Source: Stackebrandtia albiflava
GTDB lineage: Bacteria > Actinomycetota > Actinomycetes > Mycobacteriales > Micromonosporaceae
DNA length: 64,000 bases
Reading direction: 5' to 3'
Assembly: GCF_007994225.1 (NCBI RefSeq)
Contig: NZ_VLLL01000006.1
Span: 1,550,001 to 1,614,000, forward strand
Shown here piece by piece: positions 12,576 through 19,010 of this stretch (positions are counted from its first letter, which is position 1; the number at the start of each line of letters is the position of its first letter). A program made the translations under genes and the position numbers. The notes under the pieces were generated by a model. The model ran no database searches. It saw only the letters and a program-made list of their open reading frames with translations, and had not been told where the DNA came from.

Positions 12576-15569
12576 GTGGCGACACGAACACCAATGCCCC
12601 GTATCAACCGCCGAGGTCGTTACGTCCTCGGCCTGCTGGTCGGGGTCATCGCGCTGCTGACGGTCGCCGGTTGGTTCGTCAGCCTGTACACCGACTATCT
12701 GTGGTACGACTCGACCGGGTACACCGGCGTGTTCAGCACCACCATCTGGACCCGGGTCATCATGTTCGCCGTGTTCGGCGTCGTGATGGCACTGTGGACC
12801 GCGGCGAACCTGTGGGTGGCGTGGCGGTTCCGGCCCGACTCCGTGCCCCACACCCCCGAACAGCAGAGCATGGAACGGTACCGTGCCGCGCTCGACCCGA
12901 AGATCGGCTGGTGGTTCGCGGGTGCGGGCATCCTGGTCGGCCTGTTCGCGGGCGTGTCGGCGCAGGACCGCTGGCAGCAGTGGCTGCTGTTCGCCAACTC
13001 CCGGGAGTTCGGGCGCACCGACCCGCAGTTCGACGTGGACGCCGGCTTCTACGTCTTCGAGCTGCCGTTCTGGGAGTACCTGGTCGGTGTGGGCTTCACC
13101 ATGATCGTGGTGGGCATCATCGCGGCGCTCACCATGCACTACCTCTACGGCGCGGTGCGGCTGTCGGGCCGGGGTGAACGCATCACCCCGGCGGCCCGCT
13201 GGCACCTGTCGGTCCTGATCGGCCTGTTCGTGCTGTTGAAGGCCGTCGCCTACTACCTCGACCGGTTCGCGCTGACCCTCCAGTACAACGACATCACCGA
13301 CCTGACCGGCGGTGGTTACACCGAGATGACGGCCCTGCTGCCCGCCAAGGAGATCCTGATCTTCGTGTCGGTGCTCGCCGCGGTGGTCGTGGTGGTGTTC
13401 TCCAACTTCTGGGTGCGCAGCCTGCTGGTGCCCGGTATGGCGCTGGGCCTGGTGCTGCTGTCGGCCATCGTGGCGGGCGGCATCTTCCCGTTCGCGATCC
13501 AGCAGTTCGAGGTGCGTCCCAACGCGCCCGAGAAGGAGAGCGACTACGTCCAGTACACCATCGACGGCACCATGTTCGCCTACGGCATGGAGGGCATGGT
13601 CCGGGAGGACCTGACACTGGACGGCGCACCGGACGCGTCGGCGTTGCTGACCGACACCGGAACCGTGCCGTACACGCGGTTGCTCGACCCGTCGATCGTG
13701 TCCGACGCCTTCACGCAGAAGCAGCAGGCGCGCGGCTTCCACGACTTCAACGACAAACTCGACGTCGACCACTACGTCAACGCCGACGGCGAGGTCCAGG
13801 ACTACGTCGTGGGCGTCCGGGAACTGAACCCCGACCAGCTCAACAGCCAGGACTGGACGGTCCGGCACACCATCTACACGCACGGATACGGACTGGTCGC
13901 GGCGCCCGCCAACCGGGTGTGCGACTCCGGGCCGTACTTCGAGTCCGGTTCGCTGCTCGAACTGGAGGACTCCGACGAGTCGGCGGTGGAGGAGGGCGAG
14001 GAACCGGCGGAGGATCCCGACTCCGGGTCCACCTGCCGTTCCTCGACGGACTTCGTGGAGATCACGCACCCGCAGATCTACTTCGGTGAGCTCAACAACG
14101 ACTACGCCATCGTCGGCGTACCCGACGGCGCGTCGCCGCGCGAGTACGACCGCCCGTCGGGCGGCACCACCACGGAGGACAACGCCCAGACCGGTGAGGA
14201 GGAGGTCGACGACGAGGGCAACGCCTACGTGACCTACGAGGGCACCGGCGGCGTCGACGTCGGTTCCTTCTGGCACCGGCTGTGGTACGCGTGGGAGTTC
14301 GGTGAGACGAAGTTCCTGCTGTCGGAGCAGTTCAACGACAACTCCAAGCTGCTCTACCACCGCACGCCCCGCGAACGCGTGGAACGGGTCGCGCCGTTCC
14401 TGACCGTGGACGGCGACCCGTACCCGACCGTCGTCGACGGCCGGATCGTGTGGGTGCTGGACGGCTACACCACGTCGAGCTCGTACCCGTACTCCGACAT
14501 GGTCGACCTGCAGGACGCCACCAACGACTCCTACACCGGTCAGGGCGCCACGCAACAGGACGCCAGGTCCATCAACTACATGCGCAACTCGGTGAAGGCG
14601 ACCGTCGACGCCTACGACGGCACCGTCACGTTGTACGAGTTCGGTGAACCGGACCCGGTCCTGCAGGTGTGGGACGCCGCCTTCGGCGACATCGTGAAAC
14701 CGCAGTCGGAGATACCCGCCGAACTGATGGAGCACCTGCGTTACCCGGTGGACCAGTTCAAGGTGCAGCGGGAGATGCTGGAGCGGTTCCACGTCGACAA
14801 CGCGCGCGTCTTCATCGACGGCAGCGAGGTGTGGGAGACGCCCCCGGACCCGCGCGTCGACAACGCCAAGCTGCCGCCGTACTACGTCCTGGCGACCTAC
14901 CCGGGGCAGAACGAGGCGCAGTACCAGCTGACGTCGAACTTCTCGCCCAAGGACCGGGGCAACGTCTTGTCGGCGATCATGACCGGCCGGTACGACCAGG
15001 ACAACAGACCGGTCCTGACGTTGTACGAGCTACCGAGCGGCCAGGTCGAGTCCACCGGGCAGAAACACCAGGACATGACGTCCACACCGGACGTCGCCGC
15101 CGACCTGAAACTGTTCGAGCAACAGGGGACCACGGTGCAGTGGGGCAACCTGCTGAGCCTGCCGGTCGGCAACGGCATCATGTACGTCGAACCGATGTAC
15201 CTGCAACGGCAGGGATCCAACGAGGGGACGGCGCTTCCGCTGCTCCGCCGGGTCCTGGTGTCCTACGGCGACTACATCGGTTACGAGGAGACCTTCGACC
15301 AGGCGATCGAGTCGGTGGTCTCCCAGTACACCGGGGACGACAACGCACCCGAGGACCCGGGCGACGAGGAGACGCCGCCCGACGACGAGACCCCGCCCGA
15401 CGACGGGGAGGTCTCGCCCGAGGTCCAGGAGGCGTTGGACGCCATCGACCAGGCCATCGCCGACCTCAAGGAGGCCATGGAGAACGGCGACCTCGCCGCC
15501 CAGGGTCAGGCGTTGGCCGACCTCGACGAGGCCCTGAAGGCATATGATGAGGCCACCGGGCGGGGCTGA
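12576..15569 (+). CDS. UPF0182 (COG1615) large membrane protein
   Basis: A 997-residue protein with about seven membrane helices in the first 310 residues, then a large extracytoplasmic domain of about 600 residues. The N-terminal part has the usual family features (SLYTDYLWYDSTGYT near 34, then a FAGVSAQDRWQQWLLF loop). The C-terminal 110 residues are acidic and end in a Glu/Asp/Ala-rich helical tail (YTGDDNAPEDPGDEETPPDD and on). The family is conserved in Actinobacteria and has no established function; the PDZ/Lon-like protease next door is a constant partner. The GTG at 12576 has GAGGGAG 5 nt upstream. A very strong terminator follows. Confidence 0.9.
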   Translation: MATRTPMPRINRRGRYVLGLLVGVIALLTVAGWFVSLYTDYLWYDSTGYTGVFSTTIWTRVIMFAVFGVVMALWTAANLWVAWRFRPDSVPHTPEQQSMERYRAALDPKIGWWFAGAGILVGLFAGVSAQDRWQQWLLFANSREFGRTDPQFDVDAGFYVFELPFWEYLVGVGFTMIVVGIIAALTMHYLYGAVRLSGRGERITPAARWHLSVLIGLFVLLKAVAYYLDRFALTLQYNDITDLTGGGYTEMTALLPAKEILIFVSVLAAVVVVVFSNFWVRSLLVPGMALGLVLLSAIVAGGIFPFAIQQFEVRPNAPEKESDYVQYTIDGTMFAYGMEGMVREDLTLDGAPDASALLTDTGTVPYTRLLDPSIVSDAFTQKQQARGFHDFNDKLDVDHYVNADGEVQDYVVGVRELNPDQLNSQDWTVRHTIYTHGYGLVAAPANRVCDSGPYFESGSLLELEDSDESAVEEGEEPAEDPDSGSTCRSSTDFVEITHPQIYFGELNNDYAIVGVPDGASPREYDRPSGGTTTEDNAQTGEEEVDDEGNAYVTYEGTGGVDVGSFWHRLWYAWEFGETKFLLSEQFNDNSKLLYHRTPRERVERVAPFLTVDGDPYPTVVDGRIVWVLDGYTTSSSYPYSDMVDLQDATNDSYTGQGATQQDARSINYMRNSVKATVDAYDGTVTLYEFGEPDPVLQVWDAAFGDIVKPQSEIPAELMEHLRYPVDQFKVQREMLERFHVDNARVFIDGSEVWETPPDPRVDNAKLPPYYVLATYPGQNEAQYQLTSNFSPKDRGNVLSAIMTGRYDQDNRPVLTLYELPSGQVESTGQKHQDMTSTPDVAADLKLFEQQGTTVQWGNLLSLPVGNGIMYVEPMYLQRQGSNEGTALPLLRRVLVSYGDYIGYEETFDQAIESVVSQYTGDDNAPEDPGDEETPPDDETPPDDGEVSPEVQEALDAIDQAIADLKEAMENGDLAAQGQALADLDEALKAYDEATGRG

Positions 15570-17604: not shown

Positions 17605-17830
17605 CGATCCGGGTGTCGAGCCGGTTCCCCTCGTGGCGGGCCGGTGGAGAGGGAACCCGGTGCGATTCCGGGACTGCCCCGCAGCGGTGAACGAGAACGA
17701 CCGCCGTCAGGCGACCGGCACGGCCGGGTCGCCGAGCACTGGGCTCCAGCCCGGGAAGCGACGGCCGGTAGGCCCACCGGTGGTGACCCCACCGGATCGC
17801 TCACAGTCCGAAGACCTGCCGCGCCCGGCA
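17605..17830 (+). ncRNA. Cobalamin (B12) riboswitch
   Basis: The core elements of the cobalamin riboswitch appear in order: GAGAGGGAACCCGGTG (from 17647) with GATTCCGGGACTGCCCCGC, the B12-box region AGCGGTGA, then CACTGGGCTCCAGCCCGGGAAG (17737 on), and AGTCCGAAGACCTGCC (17805-17820). A TAGCCT box at 17575-17580 is a likely -10. There is no T-tract terminator before the gene; a hairpin CGGCAC/GTGCCG (17826-17841) and a pyrimidine run lie just before the ribosome binding site, so control is probably translational. Exact boundaries are approximate. Confidence 0.93.
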
Positions 17831-17872
17831 CCACCGTGCCGTCTCCGCACTCTCCTCGAGGGAAGGAACGCA

Positions 17873-18397
17873 GTGACCACACGCGAACCCGTGCCCGCGC
17901 GCACACCCGCCGACTCGGCGATCACCGTGTCCAGCATCATGAGCCCCCACGACACCAACCTCATGGGCACCGTCCATGGTGGAGTCGTGTTGAAGCTCAT
18001 CGACTCGGCGGCCGGGGTGGTCGCCGCCCGGCACTCCGGTGGCCCCGCCGTCACCGCCTCCATGGACGAGACGGTGTTCCTGGTGGCCGTCCGCGTCGGC
18101 GACGTCGTACACGTCGACGCCCGGATCACCTGGGCCGGCAGGACCTCCATGGAGGTCGCCGTCAAGGCGACCGCCGACCGCTGGAACGAGTCCGTACCGC
18201 CCACCACGGTCGCCACCGCCCACCTCGTGATGGTGGCCGTGGACGCCGACGGCGTCCCCCGCCCCGTCCCGGAACTCGTCACCGAGACACCCGAGGACGT
18301 CCGGCGATACCGGCAGGCGGAGATCCGCCGCAGCCACCGGCTCGCCCTGCGCGCCGCCCTGAAGGCCGCCGGTGAGGCGGGCGACGATGTTGCCTGA
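17873..18397 (+). CDS. Acyl-CoA thioesterase (hot-dog fold) under riboswitch control
   Basis: A 174-residue hot-dog acyl-CoA hydrolase of the YciA/BACH type, cleaving acyl-CoA to free acid and CoA in the cytoplasm. Motifs: MSPHDTNLMGTVHGGVVLKLID, with the catalytic Asp and HGG region at 24-40, then VHVDARITWAGRTSMEV. Here the strings are split over neighbouring strands. The GTG at 17873 has AAGGA 5 nt upstream, 43 nt after the riboswitch. Its stop region overlaps the next gene by 11 nt. B12 control suggests a link to propionyl/methylmalonyl-CoA metabolism, where B12 shortage would trap CoA; that is inference. Confidence 0.88.
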   Translation: MTTREPVPARTPADSAITVSSIMSPHDTNLMGTVHGGVVLKLIDSAAGVVAARHSGGPAVTASMDETVFLVAVRVGDVVHVDARITWAGRTSMEVAVKATADRWNESVPPTTVATAHLVMVAVDADGVPRPVPELVTETPEDVRRYRQAEIRRSHRLALRAALKAAGEAGDDVA

Positions 18398-19010
18398 GGC
18401 CGCGACCTACCTGGCGTACCTGGGCGCCATCGCGCTGCTGATGATCACACCGGGACCGGACATGATGTTCGTACTGGCCAACGCGGGACGGTGGGGTGTG
18501 CGCGCCGGCGTCGCCGCCGCGGTCGGGGTCGCCGCCGGTGAGGCCGTCCACGTCGCGGCGGCGGCGGTCGGCCTGGCGTCGCTGTTCGCCGCGAACCCGG
18601 TGCTGTACCAGGTGGTCCGGTACGCCGGTGCCGGATATCTCGTGTGGCTGGGGATCAGGGCGCTACGGCACCGGGCCGACACCGCCCGGCCGCAGTCCGG
18701 CGAGTCGGGATGGTGGCGGTCGTTCCGGCGCGGCCTGGTCACCAACGTCCTCAACCCGAAGATGGCGTTGTTCACGGTGGCCTTCCTGCCGCAGTTCATC
18801 GATCCCGCGCGCGGTTTCGTCACCGGGCAACTGCTCGTGCTGGGCGCCACCTTCATCGCCGTCCAGTTGACGGTGGACCTCGGGCTCGCCCTCCTGGCCG
18901 GGCGGTTCGGCGACAGGTGGCTGCGGCGGCCGTCGGTGGCCCGCCGCATCAACACCGTCACCGGCACCGTCTTCATCGGACTCGGCGCCCGGCTGGCGAC
19001 ACTGGGCTGA
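18387..19010 (+). CDS. LysE/RhtB-family exporter
   Basis: A 207-residue membrane protein with about six helices. The family signature is clear: MITPGPDMMFVLANAGRWG near residues 14-32, a G-rich helix, and GLVTNVLNPKMALFTVAFLPQF in the middle. LysE/RhtB proteins export amino acids or related small molecules. The ATG at 18387 lies inside the thioesterase gene (11-nt overlap), so the two are translated together and share the upstream cobalamin riboswitch. Substrate is not predictable. Confidence 0.88.
   Translation: MLPEAATYLAYLGAIALLMITPGPDMMFVLANAGRWGVRAGVAAAVGVAAGEAVHVAAAAVGLASLFAANPVLYQVVRYAGAGYLVWLGIRALRHRADTARPQSGESGWWRSFRRGLVTNVLNPKMALFTVAFLPQFIDPARGFVTGQLLVLGATFIAVQLTVDLGLALLAGRFGDRWLRRPSVARRINTVTGTVFIGLGARLATLG

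Follow-up and report, generated by a model that had tools for sequence, protein, structure and literature searches.

An acyl-CoA thioesterase gene (TE) preceded by a cobalamin riboswitch is present in the window, the whole 64,000-nucleotide stretch of host DNA analysed here, and the same pairing recurs in one clade of the enzyme, designated TE-A, across the host's family. This arrangement is rated as a known riboswitch with a new class of target. The explanation proposed for it is that the riboswitch-controlled TE relieves the acyl-CoA backing up at stalled B12-dependent mutases, a reading whose chances we consider evenly balanced and which draws its support from gene distribution.

Riboswitch, thioesterase and exporter genes of the window

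Four features, all on the forward strand, make up the locus:

17605..17838, + strand: cobalamin riboswitch aptamer (RF00174; cmscan 51.2 bits, gathering score 31.5)
17860-17867, + strand: Shine-Dalgarno-like GGGAAGGA, read from the sequence and probably the point of control
17873..18397, + strand: acyl-CoA thioesterase TE (hotdog, 4HBT; ACOT-like), 174 aa, GTG start, PF03061
18387..19010, + strand: LysE/RhtB-family exporter, 207 aa, ATG start, PF01810, overlapping the end of TE

The RNA matched RF00174 above the gathering score over model positions 1-189, the full length of the model (E 7.7e-10), and RF00174 was the sole Rfam family to score above gathering in the whole 64 kb window, which bears out the original prediction of a B12 riboswitch. 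A regular-expression scan for the B12 box missed riboswitches, and covariance models were used instead. With R1, a custom model of 17 riboswitches taken from TE loci and other loci (window copy included), the window riboswitch scored 98.9 bits. Two-sided changes with pairing kept were seen in 18 of the 52 predicted pairs of this 17-sequence alignment, so that the conserved RF00174 structure shows compensatory changes across relatives.

The window riboswitch is the most divergent of the 17 aligned copies, differing at 8 of the 96 columns that are invariant among the other 16, while the next most divergent copy is changed at 6 of 94. Within a single helix, one pair has changed from G-C to A-U with pairing kept (alignment columns 89-196) and two are broken (86-199 and 90-195). 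The GTG start codon of TE is separated from the riboswitch by 34 nt, where 43 nt had originally been claimed, and lies five bases past GGGAAGGA. Folding gave no better result than shuffled sequences for either the short window leader (z -0.35) or the whole leader (z -1.11). The L5-L13 kissing loop is a feature of the cobalamin riboswitch expression platform, and the TE leaders of Micromonospora, read by eye, share a possible hairpin whose GCGGG loop could pair with CCCGC of L5; many of them also carry a candidate anti-SD/SD pair (TCCTCG/CGAGGA), likewise read by eye. In the window, the leader is far shorter, with no visible P13/L13-like hairpin of the Micromonospora kind; as a speculation, its own Shine-Dalgarno sequence GAGGG could pair with L5.

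Taken with the eight changed columns, the two broken pairs, the 34-nt leader without such a hairpin, and two genomes of the same genus in which no riboswitch was found at TE, the window riboswitch could be decaying and no longer regulating, the family-wide linkage being real. We regard this as unlikely: the core blocks are intact, the Rfam score stands well clear of gathering (51.2 against 31.5 bits), one pair change is compensatory, and the Shine-Dalgarno block is shared with genome G046, where the riboswitch scores 98.5 bits. The block before TE, GAGGGAAGGAACG, is present both in G046 and in locus L086, with GTGGGAAGGAACG in L084. The window riboswitch may nevertheless be weakened, though its core blocks are intact.

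Both protein assignments of the original prediction were upheld. TE scored 64.3 bits with PF03061 (4HBT), for which the curated Pfam cut-off is 20.6, and its nearest solved structures by sequence are ACOT7/ACOT12-type enzymes, whose entries we take to be vertebrate-type, and bacterial acyl-CoA hydrolases. Residues N29 and D44, which are invariant in 20 aligned sequences and align with N and D of 1vpm, are presumably the catalytic Asn/Asp positions of the 4HBT/ACOT-type family around the HGG motif. TE matched five NCBIfam models, each below cut-off, and reached 47.2 with the YciA equivalog NF007970, against a cut-off of 162. LysE scored 141.3 bits with PF01810 (Pfam cut-off 25.6); its seven NCBIfam matches all fell short of the curated thresholds, the best scores being those for leucine (LeuE; 142.4 against 165) and homoserine/threonine efflux (142.1 against 183.95). 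Its ATG lies inside the final 11 nt of TE, an overlap that makes translational coupling of the two genes plausible. Elsewhere in the window, a 997-aa frame with membrane-like stretches (12576-15569) is conserved near TE in genome G066 (cluster c13).

Linkage of the riboswitch to the TE-A clade

A search of 300 family genomes returned TE matches in 249, and those with a best E below 1e-60 were defined as TE-A, a clade of 67 genomes that includes the host. Identity to the window TE is 64-100% within TE-A and about 57% in a sister clade, and there are some weaker matches besides. In 50 of the 67 TE-A genomes a riboswitch, as scored with model R1, lies directly upstream of TE on the same strand, with 47-182 nt between the riboswitch end and the start of the TE match. 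TE is the last gene of a riboswitch-headed metE or nrdAB operon in six further TE-A genomes, the order being riboswitch-metE-TE in G018 and G052, riboswitch-nrdA-nrdB-TE in G084, G158 and G281, and nrdA-nrdB-TE in G263. The last of these was scored 'none' by script, its sequence stretch ending before the riboswitch; the riboswitch is visible in the identical copy L119, which contains the first 2000 bases of the G263 stretch, and G263 was recounted as operon-linked, giving a tally of 56 linked and 11 unlinked genomes. A Pfam check that covered four operon loci or parts of them confirmed MetE in L072 (G052) and L074 (G018), and NrdA and NrdB in L073 (G084) and L228 (G158). Genome G161 holds two TE-A copies, each with a riboswitch, and was counted once. 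With the Rfam model, a cobalamin match was found upstream in 23 of 29 TE-A loci. A further 46 loci, some of them ending near TE, gave 31 direct upstream matches and are mostly repeats of genomes already counted.

Outside TE-A, the linkage was not seen. None of 20 sampled sister-clade loci had a riboswitch within the 1 kb flanks searched, a range that leaves distant operon heads outside, and the best chance hit was 9.9 bits; nor did any of 34 loci from outside the family (Kribbella, Amycolatopsis, one Streptomyces-labelled record and more distant ones). The neighbours of TE in Kribbella offered no functional hint. The eleven unlinked TE-A genomes have no upstream riboswitch at the gathering score, although L104 has one downstream of TE. 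In one genome (G290, locus L220), a TE frame without a visible start codon and with no riboswitch found is followed by an intact-looking LysE frame, an apparent loss of the leader. Shorter cobalamin riboswitches, of about 95-145 nt as against the usual 180-220 nt or so, stand upstream of TE in L008, L009, L094, L105 and L140, and two structural types of switch may serve TE.

The three gene arrangements under the same control indicate that it is the regulation of TE that has been kept. Alternatively, the riboswitch could be the leftover of a lost btu/cbi gene, with TE downstream by accident, a possibility that the original prediction had raised in the form of a target lost only here. It has nothing more in its favour than btu/cbi genes being the usual targets, and with the riboswitch-TE order in 50 genomes and six operon cases besides, a stranded btu/cbi switch is ruled out by recurrence; linkage in 56 of 67 TE-A genomes contradicts it, and we consider it scarcely credible.

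The exporter recurs less regularly. LysE directly follows TE in 29 of the 67 TE-A genomes, one of these being a 64-residue match only, and was not found in that position in the other 38; in L102 and L109 (4520-4711 in both), a 63-aa C-terminal LysE remnant follows TE while the riboswitch-TE pair is intact. The exporter is thus an optional component and TE the constant target of the switch. We read LysE as probably an old partner of TE that has often been lost. This pattern bears on another explanation, in which the exporter is the main cargo: in a cell whose MetH has stalled and that has no MetE, amino acids of the homocysteine/homoserine type would accumulate and be exported by LysE, and TE would be secondary. 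The presence of MetH in the host, where MetE was not found, and the top NCBIfam scores of LysE (leucine and homoserine/threonine efflux, 142 bits each, below cut-off) are in keeping with it. The 38 genomes without a LysE directly after TE, the reduction of LysE to a remnant while the TE-switch link persists, and the presence of both MetE and LysE in G046 make it quite improbable.

The surroundings of TE-A genes often include genes for MetE, NrdA and CbiQ and a secreted repeat protein, several of them with a riboswitch of their own. The secreted repeat proteins near TE-A loci, for which no Pfam match was found beside TE-A, are presumably transcobalamin-like. Three further riboswitches were found in the host, one before a periplasmic-binding-type protein (PF01497), taken as BtuF-like, and two before secreted repeat proteins. 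The host repeat proteins behind cobalamin riboswitches at L002:1599-2912 and L004:15-1457 end in LPVTG and a membrane tail, as sortase-anchored proteins do; they gave no Pfam match above cut-off and may be cell-wall B12 binders. In a Pilimelia region, a SAM riboswitch (RF00162, 71.5 bits) was observed at L071:470-591.

Host B12 metabolism and the distribution of PrpB

The host assembly (5.55 Mb, 13 contigs) is 98% complete, and its gaps could hide genes. It encodes three acyl-CoA mutase catalytic genes and a separate B12-binding subunit, a methylmalonyl-CoA epimerase above cut-off, and MetH. None of the three mutase genes exceeds the methylmalonyl-CoA mutase equivalog cut-off; they are without a fused B12 domain, so the cut-off may be unreachable for them. 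Searches of this assembly failed to turn up MetE, CobN, a PrpD-family gene or above-cut-off PrpB. The host would accordingly seem to be a B12 importer, CobN having been the sole synthesis marker searched. Since markers of the mutase pathway are present and methylcitrate markers were not found, the sole standard propionyl-CoA outlet in evidence is the B12-dependent one. In Mycobacterium tuberculosis growing on propionate, one of the two propionyl-CoA outlets is essential, according to the excerpted text of PMC4428469.

Two candidate discriminators were set aside. Methylmalonyl-CoA mutase was present throughout (PF01642 in 300 of 300 genomes), and PF03972, the PrpD family, was unsuitable as a methylcitrate marker, occurring in 44 of 101 genomes with up to 14 matches per genome. 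After this messy outcome, PrpB was adopted as the marker, defined by TIGR02317 at the equivalog cut-off. Above-cut-off PrpB occurs in 23 of the 300 family genomes and in no case together with a switched TE; the TE-A genomes that have it are G004, G030 and G066 only, all three without the switch. Fisher's test, which here ignores relatedness, gave 0.0046 within TE-A (55 linked against 12 unlinked), 0.0034 with G263 counted as linked (56 against 11), and 0.011 against all 300 genomes. Roughly two lineages carry the anticorrelation, Pilimelia and the genus of the window.

Five genomes represent the window's genus. In two (G000 and G046), switch, TE and LysE are all present, while above-cut-off PrpB and PrpD are both absent; two (G004 and G066) have TE, PrpB and PrpD, and lack switch and LysE; G083 has PrpB and PrpD and no TE match. 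The glyoxalase-like and sugar-dehydrogenase genes that adjoin the window TE (clusters c10 and c11) also adjoin that of G004, and these shared neighbours suggest that switch and LysE were probably lost in G004.

The pattern has its exceptions. Eight TE-A genomes have neither the switch nor above-cut-off PrpB. PrpD-family members are encoded by six or more of the switch-linked genomes (G007, G015, G020, G036, G052 and G087), which counts against a simple rule linking switch and methylcitrate cycle. PrpB is also an imperfect marker of that cycle, since isocitrate lyase takes over the PrpB step in M. tuberculosis (PMC4428469, as excerpted), and the switch-linked genomes with PrpD-family genes may have a PrpB-free form of the cycle. 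Moreover, TE-A is absent from 233 of the 300 genomes, and most of these are also without PrpB, so that the valve is not required.

These exceptions also bear on an explanation in which control by the switch is real but TE serves another B12-dependent step, at a mutase of the isobutyryl-/ethylmalonyl-CoA type, or general CoA recycling. It would be compatible with the below-cut-off scores of all three host mutase genes, with the ACOT7/ACOT12-type and bacterial acyl-CoA hydrolases that are the closest solved relatives of TE, and with the PrpD family in those six or more switch-linked genomes. The epimerase and B12-binding subunit of the host, and the absence of above-cut-off PrpB wherever TE is switch-linked, speak against it, and we judge it rather unlikely while giving it some weight.

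A possible safety valve and its relation to known systems

Cobalamin riboswitches are OFF switches in known cases, and hotdog-fold thioesterases act on many acyl-CoAs. In the proposed safety valve, plentiful B12 would let the riboswitch keep TE, and here also LysE, off, with occlusion of the ribosome-binding site as the likeliest means. When B12 is short, TE would be made and would hydrolyse the acyl-CoA esters behind stalled B12-dependent mutases, most likely propionyl-CoA or methylmalonyl-CoA; hydrolysis would free CoA, the acids would exit the cell, and LysE would export a related amino acid or a similar compound. We infer the OFF direction from the known behaviour of the riboswitch family, and likewise the translational mode, the co-transcription of the two genes, the substrate of TE and the cargo of LysE.

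The original prediction had offered the same valve. It gains indirect support from the placement of TE in riboswitch-headed metE and nrdAB operons, from the mutase markers of the host and its lack of detected methylcitrate markers, and from the PrpB-positive TE-A genomes being without the switch; it loses from the PrpD family in at least six switch-linked genomes. The exporter is an optional part of it. In its broadest form, the reading is of an overflow system for B12 shortage: a thioesterase devoted to this task, in many cases accompanied by an exporter, would discard the acyl groups behind stalled mutases. Such a system would be a bacterial equivalent, under regulation, of methylmalonic/propionic aciduria and would be kept where the methylcitrate cycle is incomplete. 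We advance this wider version tentatively, putting its chances at somewhat less than even.

Cobalamin riboswitches are usually read as controlling either the acquisition of B12 or ways of doing without it, and a recurrent target that manages the damage from B12 shortage would represent a third strategy. If true, the reading would give an uncharacterised thioesterase clade a testable function, with the prediction that B12-starved Micromonospora excretes propionate or methylmalonate in a TE-dependent manner. It would also be relevant to polyketide production in the host's family, a process fed by the same pool of CoA precursors.

Among known RF00174 regulons, the RNA family is the same, and the neighbours or operon partners of TE, metE and nrdAB, are classical targets. 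Sun et al. (2013) distinguished four classes of cobalamin riboswitch targets, namely B12 synthesis, transport of B12 or its precursors, cobalt transport, and isozymes of B12-dependent enzymes, with the actinobacteria represented by Corynebacteriaceae and Mycobacteriaceae only (PMC3766115, as excerpted). The thioesterase differs in falling into none of these four classes as given in the excerpts. The terms LysE and acyl-CoA are absent from the main text of that paper, and the count for thioesterase was zero. In Streptomyces lividans, two cobalamin riboswitches precede genes for cobalt transport and cobalamin synthesis (PMC8079986, in part). No report of the combination of cobalamin riboswitch and thioesterase, or of B12 control of an ACOT- or YciA-like thioesterase, was found in the open literature among the matches listed, subscription papers lying outside the search; one match, PMC8620254, names an acyl-ACP thioesterase in its excerpted text only in a figure legend, separate from its riboswitches.

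The mycobacterial metE riboswitch is likewise an actinobacterial switch that is OFF with B12 present, and in M. smegmatis its effect is suggested to be chiefly translational (PMC8088520, excerpted text). That switch brings in a B12-free substitute enzyme, whereas the window switch commands a hydrolase and no substitute. The methylcitrate cycle meets the same problem, the toxicity of propionyl-CoA derivatives, by a B12-free route (PMC4428469, in part), but it assimilates the carbon that the thioesterase would discard. Hotdog thioesterases of the ACOT type and of YciA-like kind share with TE the family, the Asn/Asp positions and the solved relatives, with TE well below the YciA equivalog cut-off. 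In animals, methylmalonyl-CoA hydrolase and methylmalonic aciduria offer a further parallel, in which acid is shed when the B12-dependent mutase fails; the likeness to TE is one of working only, homology not being claimed.
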